A stretch of 45,346 bases of DNA from Bacteroidia bacterium (GTDB lineage Bacteria > Bacteroidota > Bacteroidia > SpSt-205), in the NCBI GenBank assembly GCA_026413325.1, contig JANZYW010000012.1, positions 1 through 45,346 of the forward strand, given 5' to 3'. The notes below the pieces were generated by a model that made no database searches, was not told the DNA's origin, and saw nothing but the letters and a program-made list of their open reading frames with translations. Both the position numbers and the translations under genes were made by a program. Positions 6,323 to 18,069 of this stretch are shown here, piece by piece; the first letter of the stretch is position 1, and each line of letters opens with the position of its first letter.

Positions 6323-8716
6323 CTATACCGTATTGCTTTTACGAACGATGGCTCCTTTCCCCTCCACTGCTGCGATAGCTTTGCGGAGAAAAGCATGAAT
6401 TTCTCCTTCTGAAAGGGTGTGATCTCCTTGTAGGTAAAGCCGAATCCCGTAGCTGCGTTTCCCTTCCGCATCTATGTAGAAATCGAAAGGTTCGATGTAA
6501 AAAAGATACGGGTCATTGAGGTCGCGCAAGCTCTGAAGGATATCTGCATAACTGAGCCCCTCCGTGAGGTAGATACTGAGGTCCTTTATAACGACGGGCT
6601 GATAGGAAATGCCTCTAAAGTGAGGGAGGTGGCGAGCATTATTTTCCCAGAAAAGAGGCAGGATTTCGGCGCAGGCTACTTGTTCTCCCTGTAGACCAAA
6701 TCTCTCCAGATAGATGTCGGAGAGTAAGCCCACCACTCCGAGGAAAGTCTCTTGGAGATACAGTTGCACTCCTTCTCGCCAGAGACCCTGTGGAGATGAA
6801 AAAGGTTTTTCTCTATAGGGTACACTCAGCCGCTGCAGTAAAGCTCGGACAAGGGCAGAGAAGTGGGCTAAAGGAGAAGAGTCTTTCTCTAATGAAGTAT
6901 ACGGGGGGCGGCCCCAACCCCACAAAGCCAGGTGCTGCTGTTCTCCTTCGGGAGTGTATACTTTCCCCCATTCATACCCCCAGAAGCCTTGGCTACCGTG
7001 ATTGCGGTTGTGGGAGAGAACTTCTAATCCAGAACCAATAAGGGTGGGACGAAGGTAAGCCAGCTCTTCGTAAAGAGGGTTGGCAAGCCGTATTGGAAGG
7101 AAAGGAAGTTCCGGGGGGAAATGGTGGGGACCGACAAGGGAGTTAGTACGAATCTCCCATAATCCCATCCCCGTCAGAAACTCTGATATAGCCTGTTGGA
7201 GCTGATATTGAAAATCTACCCTCGTTGGGAGAAGGTAAGGAACAGCAGCCTGGCTTCGCATACGAGGGACTTTATCCCATCCTTCTAACCGAAGGAGTTC
7301 TTCTGCGATATCTGCGGGACGGGTCACATCCAGTCGATAGCGGGGCACGCTTACTTCCCACTCCTCTGCGCTCAGAGGAGTTACCGTTATCTCTAGCCGT
7401 TCCAGTCTTTCTTGGAGAATAGAAGAGGAGAGGGGGAGCCCCGTTACCTGTCGGATTCGCTCTATCTGAACAGGGAAACGCCGATCTGCAGTGTGCGATT
7501 CTGAATGATGCTCTCCATACATTGACACCTCTGCCGTAGGGTAGATTCGTTGCAGGAGAGAAGCCGCCGCTTCCGCAGCCCAGGGTACCTGTCGGGGATC
7601 GGTACCGCGCATGAAGCGATAGCCACTTTCCGTATGAAGGCCCAGCCGGCGCCCCGTTCGTCGAATACTGGTGGGTGAGAAATAGGCAGATTCTATGAAG
7701 ACCGTATGGGTATAGCCGGTCACAGCAGTTCTTGAGCCCCCTATTAGACCGGCAAGGCAAGCAGGTCCCTTTCCATCTGAGATAACGATGTCACCCGGCT
7801 GTAGCTGGAGCTTCTGACCCGAAATACTTTCAAATAGAGCTGGTTCTTCAAGGGGGGCGACGTGAAGGGTACTTCCCTCCAGCTGCTCTACATCGAAAGC
7901 GTGAAGCGGCTGGCCCCACCCTATTAGAAGGTAGTTCGTTACGTCTACTATGGGATGGATACTCCGCAGGCCAGCCGCTTCCAATCGATGTCGGAGCCAA
8001 CCAGGAGAAACGGGCTTTTCGACCAGACCTGAAATATACACACCTCCGTAACGGGGACAAGCGACTTCGTTGGGTACTCTTATCTGGAGGGGTAGGGGCT
8101 TTCTCTCCCCCTCGATCCTGTGTGTAGGTCGGTGAAGCCGTGCTCCCGTGAGGACATGATATTCTCGAGCGATACCCCAGTGACTGAGGGCATCACCTCG
8201 GTTGGGGGTGGGGCTGATCTCTAAGATCGTATCGGTGTAATCCTCTAATACCTCTGAGAGACGGCGTCCTACGGGGGCCTCTGGAGCAAGAAGAAAGATA
8301 CCTTCTGAATCAGAACCTATGCCTAACTCGCTCTCAGAGCAGAGCATACCCTCAGAGAGGATGCCCCGTAGGCTGCGGGCTTGTAGGGGAATCCATCTGC
8401 CATCGATTTTTACTTCAGCACCCGGTAGAGCTACTGGCACCTTAGCCCCGACATCGATGTTAGAGGCACCGGTCACGATGACAACAGATTTTTCGGGGGC
8501 TATTCGTACCTCACACACAGTCAGTCGGTCGGCAGCCGGATGCCGCTCACATCGAGTTACCTCGCCTACCCAGATGCGATCCAGTGCAGAAGGGAGTCTT
8601 CGATAAGAAAAGATACCTTCCACTTCAATGCCTGCTCGGGTGAGCTTATCGGCTACCGCCTCCGGACTTTCCGTGATTTCGACCAGCTCCTGTAGCCAGC
8701 TCCATAAGATACGCAC
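6323..8716 (-). CDS. pheT: phenylalanyl-tRNA synthetase β subunit
   Basis: The 797-residue protein has the usual PheT layout. The start reads (V)RILWSWLQELVEI. A tRNA-binding EMAP-like domain follows at about 39-148 (VGEVTRCERHPAADRLTVCEV). Next are the B3/B4 editing domain, the B5 region, the catalytic-like core, and a C-terminal FDX-ACB anticodon-binding domain (about 700-797, VVIKDLSIYL to the end). With PheS it charges tRNA-Phe in the cytosol; pheS is not in this window. The GTG at 8716 is chosen because it matches the family start and has a -7 box 6 nt upstream, although the frame is open to 8800. It appears to be a single-gene unit. Confidence 0.95.
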   Translation of the reverse strand: MRILWSWLQELVEITESPEAVADKLTRAGIEVEGIFSYRRLPSALDRIWVGEVTRCERHPAADRLTVCEVRIAPEKSVVIVTGASNIDVGAKVPVALPGAEVKIDGRWIPLQARSLRGILSEGMLCSESELGIGSDSEGIFLLAPEAPVGRRLSEVLEDYTDTILEISPTPNRGDALSHWGIAREYHVLTGARLHRPTHRIEGERKPLPLQIRVPNEVACPRYGGVYISGLVEKPVSPGWLRHRLEAAGLRSIHPIVDVTNYLLIGWGQPLHAFDVEQLEGSTLHVAPLEEPALFESISGQKLQLQPGDIVISDGKGPACLAGLIGGSRTAVTGYTHTVFIESAYFSPTSIRRTGRRLGLHTESGYRFMRGTDPRQVPWAAEAAASLLQRIYPTAEVSMYGEHHSESHTADRRFPVQIERIRQVTGLPLSSSILQERLERLEITVTPLSAEEWEVSVPRYRLDVTRPADIAEELLRLEGWDKVPRMRSQAAVPYLLPTRVDFQYQLQQAISEFLTGMGLWEIRTNSLVGPHHFPPELPFLPIRLANPLYEELAYLRPTLIGSGLEVLSHNRNHGSQGFWGYEWGKVYTPEGEQQHLALWGWGRPPYTSLEKDSSPLAHFSALVRALLQRLSVPYREKPFSSPQGLWREGVQLYLQETFLGVVGLLSDIYLERFGLQGEQVACAEILPLFWENNARHLPHFRGISYQPVVIKDLSIYLTEGLSYADILQSLRDLNDPYLFYIEPFDFYIDAEGKRSYGIRLYLQGDHTLSEGEIHAFLRKAIAAVEGKGAIVRKSNTV

Positions 8717-8722
8717 AGCGTG

Positions 8723-8730
8723 CAAAAATA
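8723..8730 (-). promoter_or_regulatory. -7 promoter box of pheT
   Basis: TATTTTTG on the minus strand lies 6 nt before the GTG start of pheT. It supports the GTG start over upstream ATGs, which would lie before the transcript start. Confidence 0.65.
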
Positions 8731-8959
8731 CTCCCCTAAGGCTTTCCTCTCCATGGCATATAGAAGGGCTGGGAGATTCTTTCTTTTTGCATAGTCCCAA
8801 AATGAACGTTTTCGGCTCTGTCTCTTCCGCTTAGGCTCCCGTGAGGGGTGGGGCACAAGGAAGGAAGGCATCACAGCGACTACCGTCCACGTCGCCGTAC
8901 TAACAAAGTCTCATGGTTAATCTGAACCCCTTCCTTTGCTACAAATCGTGGCAAAGGCC
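8731..8959 (-). other. intergenic region between rnhB and pheT, nothing confident
   Basis: This 229-base stretch holds no gene I can support. On the minus strand one frame runs from about 9030 and ends INHETLLVRRRGR at about 8882, with no credible start. Another, from an ATG near 8873, gives a basic peptide (PKRKRQSRKRS) that runs 60 bases into pheT. Neither has a -7 box, and neither matches a small ribosomal protein that I know. A weak hairpin (GCGAC/GTCGC around 8873-8895) has no T-run. Confidence 0.4.
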
Positions 8960-9535
8960 CTAACAATAACTTCTCTGGAGGATTTTCTGCAAGAAGCTCA
9001 GTCGATGCAGTATGGAAGGTCCATACTCAATGAGGGCTTTCTTATGGGCGGGCGTGGGGTAGCCCTTATTCTGTTTCCAGTCATAACAGGGAAAATCCTT
9101 GTGCAGTTTCTCCATCAGTCGATCCCGTAGTACCTTAGCCACAATAGAAGCTGCGGCGATCTCGGGATAAGTTTTGTCCCCGCCGATGTGGGTTTCAGTC
9201 TGGAAGGGGAGGGGGGGAGCATGGGGTCCATCGATTCGAACGAGGTGAGGGATAAGGGGGAGAGACTCTACCGCCTCCTTCATGGCAAGGAGGGTGGCCC
9301 TGAGTACATTTTGCCGGTCAATGGCTTCGGGCCCTTGGATGCCTACTCCCATGGCTACCGAATGTGATAACAAGAAATGAAAAACCTCCTCCCTCGCATA
9401 GGGAGTAAGCATTTTGCTATCTTTCAAGAGAGGGTGGGAGAGAGCCGATGGCAGGATGACGGCGGCTGCCACGACGGGACCCGCTAAGCATCCCCGTCCG
9501 GCTTCATCCACTCCCGCTATCAGGGGCCCTGCCAT
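8960..9535 (-). CDS. rnhB: ribonuclease HII
   Basis: The 191-residue protein starts MAGPLIAGVDEAGRG. Catalytic acidic residues are Asp10 and Glu11 (DEAGRG), Asp102 (RIDGP) and Asp120 (GGDKTYPEIAAASIVAK). It cuts RNA in RNA-DNA hybrids and at single ribonucleotides in the genome. The frame is open further upstream to 9655, but ATG 9535 gives the family's normal N-terminus. It overlaps the preceding gene by 16 bases, so it is the last gene of the ugd run. Confidence 0.95.
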   Translation of the reverse strand: MAGPLIAGVDEAGRGCLAGPVVAAAVILPSALSHPLLKDSKMLTPYAREEVFHFLLSHSVAMGVGIQGPEAIDRQNVLRATLLAMKEAVESLPLIPHLVRIDGPHAPPLPFQTETHIGGDKTYPEIAAASIVAKVLRDRLMEKLHKDFPCYDWKQNKGYPTPAHKKALIEYGPSILHRLSFLQKILQRSYC

Positions 9536-10557
9536 GAGAGTTGAAGGCCCGGTAGTTGATTCCAGAGCTGTTCTTTCCATCGTCCGAAGGCGCTTTTCGG
9601 GCCTGGCTCGTTTGTCCCAGAAAAAAATAACTGTACCGAACGAAGCACGGCCCATGCCGTCACGACATACGGTTGAGGAGTGCGAATATACAGCCTTTCA
9701 GACCCTCCTTCTGCTTCTACCAGCGTACAGCTGGTTGTATTGAAGTCCATTTTGCGAGCGAATCGAGCCCTCTGGCTATCTAAGAGACGCAGGAGACCGT
9801 CGAGAAAAGGCTCCCATGCAAATACTTTTTCTAAAAAGGGGACCCAGCGGATATACCGCTTCGGGAGGGCCACCCAAGTGGAGAGGGCTTCTAAGTCGGG
9901 GTTCCATGCAGGGAAAGTGATGAGCTCCGCAAGAGTAGCGCTCCAAAAAAGATATTTCTTTTCTGTGTAAAGTGGGCGCTCTGAACTACCAAAGGGGATA
10001 GGGTGAAGTCGTCCTTTCTCCCACCGGTAGTATCCCTTCGGCAGAGTGACAAGGGCAGAGCGTACTGTCCCGGTGGAAAACCCGCCACGAGTGTATACCC
10101 CCAAATGCAACCGCAGAGCTTCTGGGTAGCGTTGACGGAAAAAGTAAAGGGCGCCCTCTCCTATCACCGTGTCGTATCCGGCTCCATGGATCAGAGGTAT
10201 CTGGGCCGAAAGATAGAGGCTTGCACTTTCGTAGATGTGATGGAGGACTTTCCATTCTCCGCAAATATCCAGGTAGGCTAACCCCTTTTCTGAGCAATAC
10301 TGCAGCCACGGTTGTGCTGTACTTTCGTAGGGGCCTGCGAAGTTTGCGATGAGGCGTACTTCAGAGGGGAGCGATACTCGAGGTAATTCTTCTAAGCTGA
10401 AGCATAAGTAAGGGAGGCCGTACAACTCTCCGAGAGCTTGAAGAGCGGAGGGATTCCGACCAGCTAAGATGGGGGGAACCCCATCGCCCATTCCTTTTCG
10501 CCATATCTCTAATAACAGGCGTCCTGTAGTACCGTTAGCGCCGTACAGTAGCCACAT
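9520..10557 (-). CDS. saccharopine dehydrogenase-like NAD(P)-binding protein
   Basis: The 345-residue protein opens with WLLYGANGTTGRLLLE, a GxxGxxG-type Rossmann dinucleotide-binding motif. It continues with AGRNPSALQAL and NFAGPYESTAQPWLQYC, a pattern of the saccharopine-dehydrogenase-like/trans-acting enoyl reductase family. HGAGYDTVIGEGAL and the TRGGFSTGTVRSAL segment also fit that family. The likely activity is NAD(P)H-dependent reduction, possibly of a lipid or polyketide-type substrate; the real substrate is unknown. It overlaps the preceding gene by 23 bases and rnhB by 16. Confidence 0.8.
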   Translation of the reverse strand: MWLLYGANGTTGRLLLEIWRKGMGDGVPPILAGRNPSALQALGELYGLPYLCFSLEELPRVSLPSEVRLIANFAGPYESTAQPWLQYCSEKGLAYLDICGEWKVLHHIYESASLYLSAQIPLIHGAGYDTVIGEGALYFFRQRYPEALRLHLGVYTRGGFSTGTVRSALVTLPKGYYRWEKGRLHPIPFGSSERPLYTEKKYLFWSATLAELITFPAWNPDLEALSTWVALPKRYIRWVPFLEKVFAWEPFLDGLLRLLDSQRARFARKMDFNTTSCTLVEAEGGSERLYIRTPQPYVVTAWAVLRSVQLFFSGTNEPGPKSAFGRWKEQLWNQLPGLQLSWQGP

Positions 10558-11101
10558 AGTGGTCGATATGTTTTTGAGAGGGATGAATGTACTGACCCTC
10601 AGAGGTTACGGTTCTCACAAGGGAACTTCTATTCCAGATGGTGGGCATGCTTTTGCGCAGTCGCTGGAGAGAGGAGAGAAAGGCATTGAGGGATTCTACG
10701 AGCTCTAAAGAGGGACGATAGTCGGACGAGAGAAGCTTCCAAGGAGGAGGAGGGCACCAGCCATGTAGGGCAGGGAGGATATGGGACGCAGAAATAGGCA
10801 ACTGAAGTTCTGCTGCGATACCGCTGTGGTAAAGCAGAAAGTCAAGACCCCAGTCCTCCCCATAGGCGAATCCTATGGGCCAGTAAGTGAGATGAAAACC
10901 GATTAAACTGTTAGGAGCCTTTCTCCGTATTTCCCAGAGCAGTACTTCTACTTCTACCAGCAGCTCTCCACTCTGTATCTCGACAGGATCGATCAGGATC
11001 CAAGAAGGAAATGAAGCTGGGATATCTTCACGTCGGCGAAGCAAATAGCCGTGAGGGGGAAGAGGGGGCTCAAGAGGAGGGAGCATGGCTGGAGTAGGCA
11101 T
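10535..11101 (-). CDS. conserved-looking protein of unknown function
   Basis: I do not recognise this protein. From ATG 11101 it has 188 residues; ATG 11086 and an upstream start at 11134 are alternatives, all overlapping the end of ugd. It is Pro-rich at the N-terminus (PPLEPPLPPHGYLLRRRED), then apparently globular and rich in Trp, Leu and Ser. No signal peptide or membrane segment is seen. The C-terminal segment is polar and basic, ending DHYVATVRR. It is translationally coupled between ugd and the saccharopine-dehydrogenase-like gene. Confidence 0.6.
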   Translation of the reverse strand: MPTPAMLPPLEPPLPPHGYLLRRREDIPASFPSWILIDPVEIQSGELLVEVEVLLWEIRRKAPNSLIGFHLTYWPIGFAYGEDWGLDFLLYHSGIAAELQLPISASHILPALHGWCPPPPWKLLSSDYRPSLELVESLNAFLSSLQRLRKSMPTIWNRSSLVRTVTSEGQYIHPSQKHIDHYVATVRR

Positions 11102-12437
11102 ATACAGGTGCTCGTCCGACAGAGATATAATCAATTCCTATTTTTTCCATTTCTTTGGGATCATATAAGTTTCTTCCATCGAATATAACAGGAAGCTTCA
11201 AATTCTGCTTGAGTGTGTCCCAGTCAGGCTGGCGAAACTCTCCCCACTCTGTTAAGATAAGAAGGCCTTCTGCTTCTCGGGCTGCTTCATACGCGGAAGG
11301 AGCGTAGTAAAGAGGCCACTCGGGGTACTGTTTCTGCAAGTTGGGTAAGGCGACAGGGTCGAAAACTCTTACAGTGGCCCCTTCGGTGAGGAGCCACTGC
11401 AGGATATCCAGAGCAGGGGCTTCCCGTATATCGTCGGTATCGGGCTTGAAAGCGACGCCCCACACAGCCAGAGTTCGCCCTCGTAAGTTTCCCCTGTAGT
11501 AAGTCTGCACTTTTTCCCAGAAGTACTTTCGCTGGAGGTGATTTATTTGAATGGTAGCTTCTACTAAGCTCAGCGATAGGTTGTACTGTCGGGCAGTGGC
11601 AGCCAGGGCTCTCGTGTCTTTGGGGAAGCAAGAGCCACCGTAGCCCACGCCTGCAAACAGATAACGACGTCCGATACGGTTATCTGCTCCCATTCCTAAA
11701 CGTACCCAATCGATATTGGCTCCTACTTGCTCACAGAGGCGGGCCAGCTCATTCATGAAGCTGATTCGGACCGCAAGGAAGGCATTTGCGGCGTACTTTG
11801 TAAGCTCTGCGCTCTCCCAATCCATCAGGTAGATGGGATTTCCCTGACGAGTGTAGGGGAGGTAGAGTTGGCGCATTTTCTCTAAAACAGGGGGATGTAC
11901 CGCTCCGATGACCACCCGATCGGGTTTTAGGAAGTCTTCCACTGCGTATCCTTCTCGGAGAAACTCGGGGTTAGAAGCTACATAGATCTGGTTGGGGAGT
12001 CTTTCATCAAAAAACCGCTGCAGGCGTCGGGCTGTCCCGACAGGGACAGTGCTTTTACTCACGATAATGCGAGGAAATAGAATGCCCTCTTTCTCCGCTA
12101 TCTGACACAGGTTGGCTGCGATCGAGTCTGCTGCCTGGAAGACGAAAGAAAGGTCTGCCTCTCCCTCAGTCCCGGATGGGGTGGGTAGGGCGAGGAAAAT
12201 GAGTTCTGCGTGAGTGATGGCCTCTGCTAACTGATTAGTGAAAGAAAGACGGCCTTCTTGCAGGTTTCGCTCAAGCAACCGATCTAACCCCGGCTCGTAT
12301 ATCGGCGACTTGCCCTGACTCAGCTTATTGACTTTCTGGGGATCGATGTCGTAGCCTATGACGATATTTCCTGTTTCTGCTAAACCTGCGGCTGTCACAA
12401 GTCCCACATATCCTACTCCAATGACTGCGATGCGCAT
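11070..12437 (-). CDS. ugd: UDP-glucose 6-dehydrogenase
   Basis: The 455-residue protein begins MRIAVIGVGYVGLVTAAGLA, the NAD-binding motif. It has the catalytic nucleophile Cys270 in GYGGSCFPKD, the active-site segment SNPEFLREGYAVEDFLKPDRVVIG, and the C-terminal substrate domain (WGVAFKPDTDDIREAPAL). It oxidises UDP-glucose to UDP-glucuronate in two steps, feeding surface polysaccharide or LPS synthesis. It heads a four-gene run ending with rnhB and is divergent from an outer-membrane-protein/waaA pair. A closely related UDP-N-acetyl-hexosamine dehydrogenase is less likely given the motifs. Confidence 0.93.
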   Translation of the reverse strand: MRIAVIGVGYVGLVTAAGLAETGNIVIGYDIDPQKVNKLSQGKSPIYEPGLDRLLERNLQEGRLSFTNQLAEAITHAELIFLALPTPSGTEGEADLSFVFQAADSIAANLCQIAEKEGILFPRIIVSKSTVPVGTARRLQRFFDERLPNQIYVASNPEFLREGYAVEDFLKPDRVVIGAVHPPVLEKMRQLYLPYTRQGNPIYLMDWESAELTKYAANAFLAVRISFMNELARLCEQVGANIDWVRLGMGADNRIGRRYLFAGVGYGGSCFPKDTRALAATARQYNLSLSLVEATIQINHLQRKYFWEKVQTYYRGNLRGRTLAVWGVAFKPDTDDIREAPALDILQWLLTEGATVRVFDPVALPNLQKQYPEWPLYYAPSAYEAAREAEGLLILTEWGEFRQPDWDTLKQNLKLPVIFDGRNLYDPKEMEKIGIDYISVGRAPVYAYSSHAPSS

Positions 12438-12441
12438 ACTT

Positions 12442-12449
12442 TACCTTTG
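12442..12449 (+). promoter_or_regulatory. -7 promoter box for the outer-membrane protein/waaA unit
   Basis: TACCTTTG lies 18 nt before the GTG at 12468. It faces the ugd box at 12459-12452 with only 2 bases between; together they form the near-palindrome TACCTTTGTGCAAAAGTA. Confidence 0.6.
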
Positions 12450-12451
12450 TG

Positions 12452-12459
12452 CAAAAGTA
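12452..12459 (-). promoter_or_regulatory. -7 promoter box of ugd
   Basis: TACTTTTG on the minus strand, 14 nt before the ugd ATG. It faces the opposite-strand box at 12442-12449. Confidence 0.6.
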
Positions 12460-12467
12460 CACATCCC

Positions 12468-13223
12468 GTGCGCTGGACTATTTTATCCACTCTCCTTCCT
12501 CTCTGGGCCCAACAAAGTATCCGAGACTCTGTTATCCAATTCTTCATGCCATCTGTGGTATATGGTGGCTATGCTCCTGGGGGAGATTTGAAGCAGCGTT
12601 TTGGGTGGAGCAGTGTGCTGGGAGGAGAACTGGCCTTCAAAACACGTCAGAATCTGTACTTGGCTTTACAGGGGGGGGGATTGGTGGGAGATAAAGTACG
12701 AGAACCAGGCCTTCTGCAGGGGCTGCTCTTGCCGAGCTTAGCCTCTGCAGGTATCTTGGCTTTTGTGGATGAAAATGGGAAATTTTTCACCCCTAACTTC
12801 AGGCAACGCGGATGGACGGCCAATCTGCGATTGGGTTGGATTCTGTCCCGATGGCGGATCCCAGGCCAAAATCCCAACTGTGGCCCTTTTATCGAAGTGG
12901 GAGGAGGGTATCTTTCGCACCGTATCCTGATAGACAAAGCCCGTAGCGAGCGTTTACCCCTTCTCGAGGGAGAGTATCTGAAAGGTTTTGACAGACTCAC
13001 CGCAGGGTGGGGGCTCACAGAAGCGATAGGATACCGATTCTTTAGCAATAGAGGACTGATTAATTTTTTCATTGCTGTCGAAGGAGGTCAGTATTTTACT
13101 CGGAGCTTGCGGAGATATGTGTATGATCGCGCAGAGCGAGATGAGCGAAAAAGAAAGGATTTCTGGGCAGGGCTTCGAGTTGGGTGGAGCCTTCCCCTGT
13201 ATGAAAAAGCTTCGGTAGAATGA
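12468..13223 (+). CDS. probable outer-membrane β-barrel protein
   Basis: GTG 12468 gives a 251-residue protein that begins with a compact signal peptide, MRWTILSTLLPLWA, with cleavage expected before QQ. An upstream TTG at 12447 overlaps the promoter box and is unlikely to be used. The mature part alternates glycine and aromatic residues (VVYGGYAPGGD, LGGELAFKTRQNLYLALQGGG, NLRLGWILSRW, GLRVGWSLPLY), as in outer-membrane barrels of Bacteroidota. No named family was recognised. The stop overlaps the waaA ATG by 4 bases, so it may serve in, or just be expressed with, LPS assembly. Confidence 0.65.
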   Translation: MRWTILSTLLPLWAQQSIRDSVIQFFMPSVVYGGYAPGGDLKQRFGWSSVLGGELAFKTRQNLYLALQGGGLVGDKVREPGLLQGLLLPSLASAGILAFVDENGKFFTPNFRQRGWTANLRLGWILSRWRIPGQNPNCGPFIEVGGGYLSHRILIDKARSERLPLLEGEYLKGFDRLTAGWGLTEAIGYRFFSNRGLINFFIAVEGGQYFTRSLRRYVYDRAERDERKRKDFWAGLRVGWSLPLYEKASVE

Positions 13224-14476
13224 GCTGGTGGTATCCCTTCTACATGTTTTTCCTCCTCATAGGAGCAGGCATCGTCCCAGTGCTGAGCCTATTTCATACT
13301 AAAGTGCGCGCTTGGTGGCGGGCTCGTCGAATCCCTCCTCCCAATCCCCCTCAGGATACCCCTGTCTTCTGGCTTCACTGTGCCTCGGTGGGAGAGTTCG
13401 AGCAAGGACGTCCTGTATTGGAAAGCCTTATAGAAAAGTTAGCCGTACGGCCCTACGTGATTGTCACCTTTTTCTCTCCGTCCGGCTGGCGCCGCTACCA
13501 GCAGAGTTATCCCGTGGCGGATTGGATAGGCCCTGCTCCTCTGGATCTTCCCTGGATTGTACGAATGTGGGTGCAGACGATCCACCCTACAGCGGTCTTC
13601 TTTGTCAAGTACGACTTGTGGCCTAACTTCCTGCGGGAGCTGTATCGACAGGGCTCTCCGTGTTATCTGTTGGCCGCTCATGTAGAACCGTTGGAAGGGG
13701 TGCGCTGGTGGTGGAGGAGACAGCTTCTTCCCTACATGCGCCACATCTTTGTCCAAACAGCTGCTGATCAGCTTCGCTTGAGCATGGCAGGATTTCCTCA
13801 AGTCACAGTCGCAGGAGATAGCCGTCTCGTACGGGTTCGACAGCTCGTGGACAACTGGCTTCCTGTATCAGGCATAGCAGAATGGGTAGGAAATCATTTT
13901 TGTATCATAGCGGGAAGCATTTGGGAGGCAGACGTACGATTTTTGGCTCGAGCTTATGAACAGCTTCGGGGGCATCATATTCGATGGATTCTGGTTCCCC
14001 ATGAAGTCTCTTCCCGTCAGATAGAAATGGTGATGCGCTTCTGGCCGGTTCGCTGCGCAGTATATAGCCAACCTGAATGGGATATTGGAAAGGATACCCT
14101 GATCGTCGACACTATGGGGCTCCTCGCTTACCTCTATGCCTATGCACATGTTGCCTGGGTCGGAGGGGGGTTCGGGGCAGGGATCCATAACATCTTGGAA
14201 GCTATCGTATATAAAAAGCCTGTGTTTTTCGGCCCTAACTATGCAGATTTCTCCGAGGCGCGAGAGCTTATACGACTGGGCGCGGCAGAGAGCTGTAAAT
14301 ACCCTGTCAGTTTCTCCAACTCTGTGAGGAGCATGATAAAAGACAAAAGGAGGATAAAAATAATAGCTGAAAAAATAGATAAATACATAGGATCCCAACC
14401 AGATACACCTGCTATTGTTTGGTCGAAACTGCACAAAGAATCTTGGTTAGCTAAGTGGATAGCTCCTACAGCTTAA
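13220..14476 (+). CDS. waaA: Kdo transferase (3-deoxy-D-manno-octulosonic acid transferase)
   Basis: The 418-residue protein has one N-terminal membrane segment (residues 4-24). The GT30-family signature HCASVGEFEQGRP follows, including the catalytic Glu of the GE motif. The C-terminal glycosyltransferase half carries HEVSSRQIEMV and a GGGFGAGIHNILEAI donor-binding region followed by PVFFGPNYADFSEA. It attaches Kdo from CMP-Kdo to lipid A precursor on the cytoplasmic side of the inner membrane. The partner enzyme KdsB ends at base 179. It is coupled (ATGA) to the preceding gene and overlaps the convergent MFS gene by 4 bases. The last 50 codons are noticeably richer in A and T. Confidence 0.95.
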   Translation: MSWWYPFYMFFLLIGAGIVPVLSLFHTKVRAWWRARRIPPPNPPQDTPVFWLHCASVGEFEQGRPVLESLIEKLAVRPYVIVTFFSPSGWRRYQQSYPVADWIGPAPLDLPWIVRMWVQTIHPTAVFFVKYDLWPNFLRELYRQGSPCYLLAAHVEPLEGVRWWWRRQLLPYMRHIFVQTAADQLRLSMAGFPQVTVAGDSRLVRVRQLVDNWLPVSGIAEWVGNHFCIIAGSIWEADVRFLARAYEQLRGHHIRWILVPHEVSSRQIEMVMRFWPVRCAVYSQPEWDIGKDTLIVDTMGLLAYLYAYAHVAWVGGGFGAGIHNILEAIVYKKPVFFGPNYADFSEARELIRLGAAESCKYPVSFSNSVRSMIKDKRRIKIIAEKIDKYIGSQPDTPAIVWSKLHKESWLAKWIAPTA

Positions 14477-15687
14477 CCCTCCTCGACAAAATCCAAAGAA
14501 GCTCCGAAGGTTTCTTGGAGCCGGAAAGCGCAGAAGATTGCGATTCCATACACAATGATTCCTGTGAGAAGAGCACTTCCCCGCAAAGTGAGAAAGGACT
14601 GAAATGTGTTCCATAACAAGGTGGAGAGAACCAGGGAACCTCGTATCCAGTTCGGCACGCTTGTAGCGACCGTAGCTCGGAGGTTAGTCCCAAACTGTTC
14701 TGCTGCTCCTGTGATCAGCACTGCCCAGTAGCCAGAGAAAAAACCCAGGAATATGCAGAATAAGTACACTTCTCCACTTTGAGAAAAAGGCAAAGTATTG
14801 TACCCCAGGGTAAGCACGGCAGCTGTTCCTAACCACAGAAGTATAGGTTTCTTCCGGCTGCGGAGTGCTTGACTGAGGATTCCAGCACCGAGGTCGCCGA
14901 GGGAAAGTCCGATGTAGGCGTACATTACTGCTTGGCTGGCTTTCACCTCACCAGAAAGGCCTGCGGTTCGAAAAAGGTCTGGAGCGAAAGTGATGAGGAT
15001 ACCTATCACATACCAGATAGGTATCCCTGTAACAATAGCGTAAAGATACCGCAGAAATCGCTTTCTCTGCCGAAAAAGCTGAAAAAAATCCCCCATCGGT
15101 ACTTGTTTCTGGTTCTTGAGCTGGGTGAAAAGCCCCGATTCTCCCAGGCCTATTCGGAGAAAGAGCAGGAGAATGCCCATTCCGCCGCCGATAAAATAGG
15201 CTACTCGCCACGGGAAAAACTCCCCGATCAGACTGGCTACCACAGCTCCCAATATCCCCACCGTGGCGATGAGTGTGGTACCCCATCCTCTCAAATGAGC
15301 AGGCATAAGCTCTGCGACCAATGTTACCCCCACTCCAAGTTCACCTGCTAAGCCGACCCCTGCGATAAACCGCCATATCCCGTAGCCATAAGCACTGCTC
15401 ACTAATCCATTCATGAAATTAGCTACAGAATAAGTCAAAATCGAAGCGAAAAGGACCGATAGCCGTCCGCGTCTATCTGCCAAGATCCCCCACAGTACTC
15501 CCCCGAGAAGCATGCCCAGCATTTGTAGGTCTAAGAGCAAAACCCCATAGCGAAGCCTTTCTTCGGGAGTATATCCAAGCTCGGTCAGACTGACTTCCCG
15601 AACTACAGAGAAGAGAATCAGATCATAGATGTCTACAAAATATCCCAACGTTGCTACGAGTACTGCTAACCAAGCCTGTCGAGTCAT
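14473..15687 (-). CDS. MFS transporter
   Basis: From ATG 15687 the protein has 404 residues and 12 predicted membrane segments. It shows the MFS loop signature GILADRRGRLSVLF between segments 2 and 3. The DIYDLILF segment, ELGVGVTLVAELMPAHLRG and a second-half loop resemble the metabolite:H+ symporter branch. The substrate is unknown. The frame is open to 15768, but ATG 15687 matches the usual MFS N-terminus (MTRQAWLAVLVATLGYF). It also has a one-mismatch -7 box 6 nt upstream. Confidence 0.85.
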   Translation of the reverse strand: MTRQAWLAVLVATLGYFVDIYDLILFSVVREVSLTELGYTPEERLRYGVLLLDLQMLGMLLGGVLWGILADRRGRLSVLFASILTYSVANFMNGLVSSAYGYGIWRFIAGVGLAGELGVGVTLVAELMPAHLRGWGTTLIATVGILGAVVASLIGEFFPWRVAYFIGGGMGILLLFLRIGLGESGLFTQLKNQKQVPMGDFFQLFRQRKRFLRYLYAIVTGIPIWYVIGILITFAPDLFRTAGLSGEVKASQAVMYAYIGLSLGDLGAGILSQALRSRKKPILLWLGTAAVLTLGYNTLPFSQSGEVYLFCIFLGFFSGYWAVLITGAAEQFGTNLRATVATSVPNWIRGSLVLSTLLWNTFQSFLTLRGSALLTGIIVYGIAIFCAFRLQETFGASLDFVEEG

Positions 15688-15693
15688 GGGCAG

Positions 15694-15701
15694 CGAAGTT
15701 A
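15694..15701 (-). promoter_or_regulatory. possible -7 promoter box of the MFS gene (one mismatch)
   Basis: TAACTTCG on the minus strand differs from TAnnTTTG at one base and lies 6 nt before the chosen ATG. Confidence 0.35.
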
Positions 15702-15856
15702 GATATCTGTAAAGAGTGTGAAAATGTATCCCTGCTATGGATTCTCTTTCTCGGAGCAAAAGGGCCATCCTCGAGCATGCAAGAGAGAAAGGCCCCGTTT
15801 CTATAGCACTTGTATTTAGGGCAGATATAGGATGCGTATGGTAGTCTTTCCCAGGA

Positions 15857-16918
15857 TTAGCGAAGGGGGGAAGTGTGATTTTGCGTAGAGGGGGAGGTGT
15901 CCCTAAGCTTGCGAAGATAGGCTAACGCCCCTGCGAAGTCTTCGGGCAAGGGGGCTTCGAAAGACAACCATTCTTCGGTGATAGGATGAGTAAACCCAAG
16001 ATAACGGGCATGGAGAGCCTGTCGAGGCATGAGTTGTAGAAGGAAATGGGCTTCCTGGCTCACCTTGGGAGTCCACAGAGGAATCCGGGGGCGGTCTCCG
16101 CCGTATACCCTGTCTCCCACTAAAGGATGGCCTATGTGCGCCATATGGACTCGAATCTGATGGGTTCGGCCCGTTTCCAACCGGCACTCTATCCAGGTGG
16201 CGAGAGGAAACCGCTCCACTACCCGCCAGTGTGTAATCGCATGCTTACCCTGTTCTCCTTGAGGGTAAGCCCTGTATTTCTTTCTTTGGTAGGGGTCTCG
16301 ACCAATGTGAGCAGAGATGGTCCCGTGCTCTTCACGGGGCTGCCCCCATATAATAGCCCAATAGCGACGTTCCGCTGTATGGGCAAAAAATTGCTTGGCA
16401 AGTCCAAAATACGCTCGCTCTTCTTTGGCCACCACAAGGATCCCTGTGGTATCTTTGTCTATCCGATGGACGAGTCCCGGACGGGAAGCGTTCTGTTCTG
16501 AACTGGGGAGTTTCTCTCCTTGAAGGTGGTACAAAAGGGCATTTAGCAGGGTACCTGAGTACACGCCTGCTCCTGGGTGACAGCTCATCCCCGCTGGTTT
16601 ATTTACTACGAGTAGGTATGGGTCTTCATAAGGGATGATAAGAGGTATCGGTTCAGGAGTGAGCTCTAAAGGAGGAGGATAAGGTAGTCTAACTACAATC
16701 GTTTGCCGGGGACGAACCCGAGCACTCGCTTTAGTGGGTTTTCCATCGATGGTGATCAACCCTACCTCTATCGCAAGCTGTAAGCGAGAACGGCTGAGAT
16801 GGGGTAGGCGCTGAGCAAGGTACTGGTCCAAGCGGATGGGGGTTTGCCCCGTATCCACGACAAACACATGATGCTCATACAGAGAGGGTTCATCCTCCGT
16901 CTGCTCAGTACTGCTCAT
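15857..16918 (-). CDS. rluD: RluA/RluD-family 23S rRNA pseudouridine synthase
   Basis: The 353-residue protein has an N-terminal S4 RNA-binding domain (about 25-80, IRLDQYLAQRLPHLSRSRLQ). The catalytic domain carries Asp154 in LVHRIDKDTTGILVVAK, the conserved HRxDxxTSG motif, and ETGRTHQIRVHMAHIGHPLVGD. It should isomerise uridines in 23S rRNA (RluD-type sites in helix 69 are inferred from the family). The start ATG 16918 overlaps the stop of the leucine-rich-repeat gene as ATGA. The frame is open upstream to 17092, but that part is shadow coding of the preceding gene. Confidence 0.92.
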   Translation of the reverse strand: MSSTEQTEDEPSLYEHHVFVVDTGQTPIRLDQYLAQRLPHLSRSRLQLAIEVGLITIDGKPTKASARVRPRQTIVVRLPYPPPLELTPEPIPLIIPYEDPYLLVVNKPAGMSCHPGAGVYSGTLLNALLYHLQGEKLPSSEQNASRPGLVHRIDKDTTGILVVAKEERAYFGLAKQFFAHTAERRYWAIIWGQPREEHGTISAHIGRDPYQRKKYRAYPQGEQGKHAITHWRVVERFPLATWIECRLETGRTHQIRVHMAHIGHPLVGDRVYGGDRPRIPLWTPKVSQEAHFLLQLMPRQALHARYLGFTHPITEEWLSFEAPLPEDFAGALAYLRKLRDTSPSTQNHTSPLR

Positions 16919-18057
16919 GGAGCATCGACCATTACCCCCTTTTTCCGCAGTCGGCTTACGAGAGCTTGAAGGCGCTCGGGGGGGAGATCTTTCCGACTTA
17001 GCATGACGTACGTGAGAGCAGGCATCTCTAATAGCTTCTCCCAGTCCTGGATAGGATTCTCGTAGCAGTATAAATAGGCTAAACGAGGACACTGGATTAG
17101 AGGTGCCAGAGAGGTGACTCGATTTTTCCCGACGGAGAGCTTCACGAGATAAGGAAGGCCCGCCAAGGGGGAGAGATCGGGGACAGAGCAGTGATGGATA
17201 TCTAAGTACAAGAGTTTACGAAGGAGTCTGACGAAACTCAAGTCTCGGATGGCAGCATTTTGTCCCAAGGTGAGTTCTTCCATTTCGGTGAGAGTGCCCA
17301 GCGCTGCCAGCGAAGCACTTTCCTGTATGATCCCCTGGGCTTGTAAGACTCGAAGTCGAGGGAATAAACCGATCTGAATCAGCATTTTACGTGCTGCTTC
17401 TGGTCGGGTGTGAGAGATATTCAGGAGTTCGAGTTGACTGTGCACGAGGAGCGGGGAGAAATCTTCGATAGCTGTACAGCGAAAAAGGGCAAGCATCCGT
17501 AAACGAGAGAGACTGCGCAGGGGAGTCAAATCCCGAATAGCAGTTTCGCTTAGGTCGAGGGCCTGTAGGCTGGATATCTGAGCTAATGGGCTGATGTCCT
17601 GGATGGGGGTTCGAGCTAAACTCAGAAACTGAAGGTCTGCAAGACGAAGAAGAGGAGAGAGGTCCGTTAGAGGATTGCCATCTAAGAGAATACCCTGAAG
17701 GGAAAGCTCTGCGAGAGGTGACAGATCGGTTATTTCGCAGTCTTCTAAGGCAAGGGCCTTTAGCTTAGGACAATACCGTCGGATTTGACGGGTGAGAGCT
17801 TGAAGGTCTATTTCTTCTATTTCGGAAAGGTGAAGCGCCTGTAGGTGAGTAAAACGTTCCAGAGGAGGTAGATTCCCCGATGCTCGGAGATAAAGAACGG
17901 TGTCTGGTCGAGTGGTAAGAGAAGTCGTGGTCCAGCTTCTTATCTGAAAAAAGCGGTCAAAAAGCTCATCGTACACGATGAGCCGAAGGGGGCTGCCCTC
18001 CTCCTGAGCATAGATAAAGCCAGCGAGTAAAATCCCTACCTTTGTCCAGCTCTGCAC
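16915..18057 (-). CDS. secreted leucine-rich-repeat protein
   Basis: GTG 18057 gives 380 residues starting with a signal peptide, [17 protein letters not shown], cleaved before QEE. At least ten internalin-like repeats follow, of the form L..L.L..T.I.DLSPL..L..L (about residues 60-370). Examples are [20 protein letters not shown] and [19 protein letters not shown]. No catalytic domain or T9SS sorting domain is visible, so it is probably periplasmic or outer-surface and binds protein. A TATATTTG box lies 4 nt upstream, supporting GTG over the upstream TTG at 18072. The ATGA overlap with rluD implies coexpression with an rRNA-modifying enzyme, which has no obvious reason. Confidence 0.8.
18037..18044 (+). 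promoter_or_regulatory. -7 promoter box of the rfaE2 unit
   Basis: TACCTTTG, 27 nt before the rfaE2 ATG at 18072. It lies inside the start of the divergent LRR gene. Confidence 0.5.
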
Positions 18058-18061
18058 TCGG

Positions 18062-18069
18062 CAAATATA
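18062..18069 (-). promoter_or_regulatory. -7 promoter box of the LRR/rluD unit
   Basis: TATATTTG on the minus strand, 4 nt before the GTG. A TTTG at 18090-18087 would be a -33 box with a 17-nt spacer. Confidence 0.65.

Follow-up and report, generated by a model that had tools for sequence, protein, structure and literature searches.

Facing sigma-A -7 boxes between ugd and a waaA gene set as a probable bidirectional promoter in a genus of Bacteroidia

Descriptions of bidirectional promoters rest on the symmetric TATAAT-type -10 element. The locus considered here raises the question of what two head-on -7 boxes do between two divergent envelope gene sets, and whether they act as one promoter used in both directions, as two promoters that overlap without consequence, or as the site of a shared regulator. 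The window, by which we mean the whole stretch of 45,346 nucleotides (nt) that was analyzed, corresponds to contig C33 of a genome that totals 2.19 Mb over 135 contigs. At positions 12442 to 12459, a motif scan of the window found TACCTTTGTGCAAAAGTA, which reads as TACCTTTG-TG-CAAAAGTA, i.e., two exact, inverted copies of TAnnTTTG, the "-7" box of Bacteroidota sigma-A promoters. The box on the plus strand (TACCTTTG, 12442 to 12449) points toward the gene for an outer membrane (OM)-like protein and waaA, and the box on the minus strand (TACTTTTG, 12452 to 12459) points toward ugd, so that they face each other across two bases as the original prediction had described. The same prediction called the 18 bases a near-perfect palindrome with one box on each strand, which is accurate: of eight box positions, only one is not shared by the two copies, and the TG in the center lacks symmetry.

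The start codons of ugd and the OM-like gene are separated by 30 bp, and the facing boxes lie inside this gap. The ugd gene (11070 to 12437, minus strand) carries domains PF03721, PF00984, and PF03720 and scores above the cut-off of NCBIfam TIGR03026; its product is a member of the UDP-glucose/GDP-mannose dehydrogenase family. Its ATG has its first base at 12437, and the palindrome begins 4 nt to the right. Its closest named relatives (71 to 76% identity) are found in the Bacteroidia metagenome-assembled genomes KatS3mg026, SKYG57, SKYG92, and SKYB87, which presumably come from hot-spring samples. The gene behind ugd (10535 to 11134, minus strand; start called at 11086) overlaps the end of ugd, has no Pfam match, and is probably cotranscribed with it. 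On the other side, the OM-like gene (12468 to 13223, plus strand) starts with a GTG at 12468 and encodes a protein of 251 amino acids that had no match in Pfam and NCBIfam; with its signal-like N terminus, as read by eye, it looks like a secreted or outer membrane protein. A TTG inside the palindrome (12447), given as the start of this gene in a mechanical list of open reading frames, was rejected because the gene caller picks 12468, a conserved start where relatives have (A/G)TG. The gene for a waaA-like Kdo transferase follows (13220 to 14476, plus strand; PF04413, E value of 5.8e-33) and overlaps the OM-like gene by 4 nt.

The placement of TAnnTTTG before genes marks it as a promoter motif of this lineage. 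We sampled 20 stretches of 20 kb from one complete genome, together with the window; of the 362 gene starts called there, 118 had the box within the preceding ∼100 nt. Its first T stood at position -12 for 36 of these and at -13 for another 20. The reversed motif, as a control, matched 4 times upstream of 318 starts. In the window itself, TAnnTTTG is enriched, with 29 matches compared with a shuffle mean of 17.4 (standard deviation, 3.5) and none of 100 shuffles reaching 29. Both boxes at the ugd junction match the Bacteroidota consensus (TAnnTTTG, -12 to -5) exactly (PMC9723704, PMC7366714). The -33 TTTG found in Bacteroides is absent here, and among 108 aligned box-bearing starts the -33 region held less than 0.1 bits per position, which counts against the promoter reading and means that promoter strength cannot be judged. 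The missing element is not decisive, however, because a -33 TTTG could likewise not be identified in Flavobacterium johnsoniae, according to PMC7366714. Scans of positions 11000 to 15000 with E. coli-type models were uninformative (1 promoter-like site versus 2.7 expected; 3 terminator-like sites versus 3.8 expected). Both boxes look like functional promoters of their gene sets: the facing pair is exact in 10 of 11 genomes, and no other exact TAnnTTTG box was present on the plus strand from 6383 to 12442 or on the minus strand from 12459 to 18062.

In the sample, the first T of the box stands 11 to 16 nt before the start codon at 83 of the 362 called starts, with a peak at -12, and many genes of the genus are therefore predicted to be leaderless. 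This would be unusual for Bacteroidota: 3.7% of Bacteroides 5′ untranslated regions are under 10 nt (PMC7366714), 5.5% is given as the leaderless share in Flavobacterium psychrophilum (PMC9723704), and among 37 Bacteroidetes/Chlorobi genomes, a single one is listed with leaderless genes (2.4%; PMC3160421).

The arrangement of the two boxes is far from what the control patterns yield. TANNTTTGNNCAAANNTA matched at a single place in the window and nowhere in 100 shuffles, and the exact 18-mer occurs only once in the genome. Across 11 genomes of the same genus, the form with a 2-base spacer was found at 9 places and the form with a 3-base spacer at 15, and the reversed-pattern control gave 0 for both; these 24 places comprise the ugd junction (9), the junction of an ankyrin gene (9), recQ|kdsD (2), and 4 others. 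With spacers of 0 to 30 bases (TAnnTTTG-N0-30-CAAAnnTA), 171 places were found in the 11 genomes, compared with 10 for the reversed pattern. This genome holds 23 such pairs, of which 14 lie between divergent genes, 4 inside a gene, and 5 in other contexts, with gene starts and contexts assigned by our own gene caller.

Three further junctions carry the tight layout. The names recQ, kdsD, recA, and ankyrin are those that we take to apply from recognizing the sequences, not from a family search. The divergent pair recQ|kdsD has facing boxes in all 10 genomes in which kdsD was found (11 searched), with a spacer of 1 in 8 genomes and 2 in the other 2. In 9 of 11 genomes, the 3-base form lies between an ankyrin-like gene and a small membrane gene that diverge from each other, and a form with a single base between the boxes lies at recA in this genome. 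It may be added that kdsD is a Kdo-synthesis gene and has the same facing-box layout as the waaA junction. Facing boxes are nevertheless a minority layout, which counts against our reading: in the sample and window together, they occur at 4 of the 14 divergent pairs that have both boxes, and among these 14 the ugd junction alone has a spacer of ≤3.

Conservation upstream of ugd in relatives, which the original prediction had proposed as a check, was found. The head-to-head order ugd|OM-like gene-waaA is present in all 10 relatives (9 from the same genus and 1 from the same family), as are orthologues of the OM-like protein, and an exact facing pair with a spacer of 2 or 3 bases is present in 10 of the 11 genomes including this one. 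The spacer is 2 in G000, G004, G006, G008, and G010 and 3 in G002, G003, G005, G007, and G011; when G009 is counted, the numbers are 6 and 5. G009 keeps the ugd-side box and has a waaA-side box that is one base short, which counts against the best reading. The ugd-side box is thus found in 11 of 11 genomes and the waaA-side box, in exact form, in 10. Box columns are 0.82 to 1.0 identical among the 11 genomes, except for one n position (0.55), and the adjacent flanks are 0.36 to 0.64 identical; the distances from box to start codon vary from 3 to 10 and from 5 to 12 nt. Two genomes were left out of this count, G001 (81% complete, with only a paralogue of 28% identity) and G012 (with only a partial match of 25%). 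Conserved boxes with a varying spacer, flanks, and leaders appear to fit two conserved promoters and not one rigid site.

We consider it probable, on these comparisons, that the site is a conserved bidirectional housekeeping promoter for ugd and the OM-like gene/waaA set. RNA polymerase with the primary sigma factor would bind the same ∼18 bp in either orientation, the left box serving the OM-like gene and waaA and the right box serving ugd and the genes behind it. If the box occupies -12 to -5, as described for Flavobacterium in PMC9723704, transcription toward waaA is predicted to start at an A at 12454 (plus strand; leader of ∼14 nt) and transcription toward ugd at an A at 12447 (minus strand; leader of ∼10 nt), 7 bp apart. 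Among the 11 genomes, the predicted starts are 7 bp apart where the spacer is 2 and 6 bp apart where it is 3. In this facing arrangement, the A that starts each transcript would come from the T-run of the opposite box, read on the other strand; all 11 genomes have A as the predicted start base in both directions, which follows from this geometry and is not independent evidence.

The explanation that competes most closely is a weaker form of this one and compatible with it. Here, two active divergent promoters would overlap through nothing more than short gaps in a compact genome, and the overlap would have no functional consequence; we give this somewhat less than an even chance. Divergent genes in the sample often lie close together (of 50 pairs, about half have gaps below 60 bp), and a search for a preferred spacer in this genome found facing spacers from 1 to 24 with no clear peak. 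Basal E. coli bidirectional promoters without competition, as reported in PMC12825309, point the same way. On the other hand, the tight layout has been kept at ugd in 10 of 11 genomes and at kdsD in 10 of 10 while the flanks change, and drift could have parted the boxes; yet compactness alone could explain their retention. Activity of one box alone seems unlikely: the shortened box toward waaA in G009 would agree with it, but 10 of 11 genomes keep both boxes in exact form, and no further exact box was found near either gene. Least probable, and very unlikely, is an operator for a dimeric transcription factor that coregulates ugd and waaA, which the symmetry and conservation of the site, its place between two envelope gene sets, and a similar site at kdsD, another gene of the Kdo pathway, would suit, but which we rejected since fixed half-site spacing failed at ugd (2 or 3) and at kdsD (1 or 2), each half is a sigma-A box, and the layout recurs at unrelated divergent pairs, among them ankyrin|membrane gene, and at recA. 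The shared regulator put forward in the original prediction fares no better, as nothing that we found points to one.

The best reading of a bidirectional promoter makes the site a likely equivalent, in Bacteroidota, of the symmetric E. coli promoters. As described in PMC12825309 and PMC10268837, the E. coli and Salmonella promoters resemble the ugd junction in that a pseudosymmetric core is common to two orientations of the polymerase, in that the A at which one transcript begins is paired with a T belonging to the opposite promoter (here predicted), and in that simultaneous binding is excluded (here presumed from the closeness of the boxes). They differ in that they share a TATAAT-type element, whereas two full facing TAnnTTTG boxes are found here. 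Start separation differs as well: the E. coli values are 18 bp, with 10 and 23 bp also given (PMC12825309), and 6 to 7 bp is predicted here. The working definition of Warman and Grainger (PMC10268837) takes divergent starts 7 to 25 bp apart on opposite strands, so that the predicted distance lies at or just below the limits of the E. coli work; as for the reciprocal overlap of core elements and starts in that definition, each predicted start lies inside the opposite box, a statement about sequence.

A site of this kind would hold one polymerase at a time, and strong firing in one direction should therefore come at the expense of the other; at low activity, the two directions would run independently. 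According to PMC12825309, two polymerases cannot occupy an E. coli bidirectional promoter together, and activating one direction can repress the other; all five promoters tested there were too low in basal activity for competition. Mutual exclusion of polymerases is thus likely here on steric grounds carried over from E. coli, and to this extent the idea that a polymerase bound for one direction blocks the other stands. Its extension to a regulatory switch that makes ugd and waaA mutually exclusive is not supported, given the weak basal activity of the E. coli promoters.

A wider proposal is offered tentatively and is, in our judgment, possible but less likely than not: head-on -7 box pairs 1 to 3 bp apart could form a distinct class of bidirectional promoters in this genus. 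Such a pair would use the T-run of one box as the start site of the other and would set the direction anew each time a polymerase binds; exclusion would balance the supply of nucleotide sugars (ugd) against the transfer of Kdo (waaA), and kdsD has the same layout. If so, a different box geometry would give bidirectional behavior with starts 6 to 7 bp apart instead of 18, and the role of polymerase exclusion would become testable in another phylum, with a layout conserved at several gene pairs. In the openly licensed PMC literature, which does not include the 2021 paper that founded the work on symmetric promoters, we found no paper on bidirectional promoters in Bacteroidota; prior coverage is possible.

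Beyond the genus and family, we fetched 20 relatives among the class genomes with a ugd match, for which homology rests on tblastn. Of these 20, 14 have a homologue of the OM-like gene, 14 have waaA, and 13 have both; without exception these lie on the opposite strand from ugd, in most cases more than 1 kb away; in both class loci that were tested (2), a DegT/DnrJ/EryC1/StrS aminotransferase gene lies between ugd and the OM-like gene/waaA. The OM-like gene and waaA divergent from (aminotransferase-)ugd thus constitute a widespread Bacteroidia cluster. A facing pair directly upstream of ugd was found in none of 19 class loci, and across 247 class genomes the compact pair was, outside the genus, often no commoner than the control and without clear enrichment (forward versus control, 6 versus 8 in G015 and 2 versus 5 in G017, although some genomes stood well above the control, such as G123 with 16 versus 0), both of which count against the best reading; for the eight same-genus genomes in that table the numbers are 31 and 0. 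These distributions suggest that the divergent pairing is old and that the tight overlap, seen only in this family, is younger.

Wider facing pairs precede the OM-like gene in 2 of 14 class relatives, G040 (spacer of 9) and G043 (spacer of 16). Others lie in the window at 18037 to 18069 (spacer of 17) and in two other loci, L130 (2001 to 2024; spacer of 8) and L131 (2001 to 2027; spacer of 11). In L130, the start codons of both genes lie between the boxes, and the genes therefore overlap head to head, each with its promoter in the first codons of the other.
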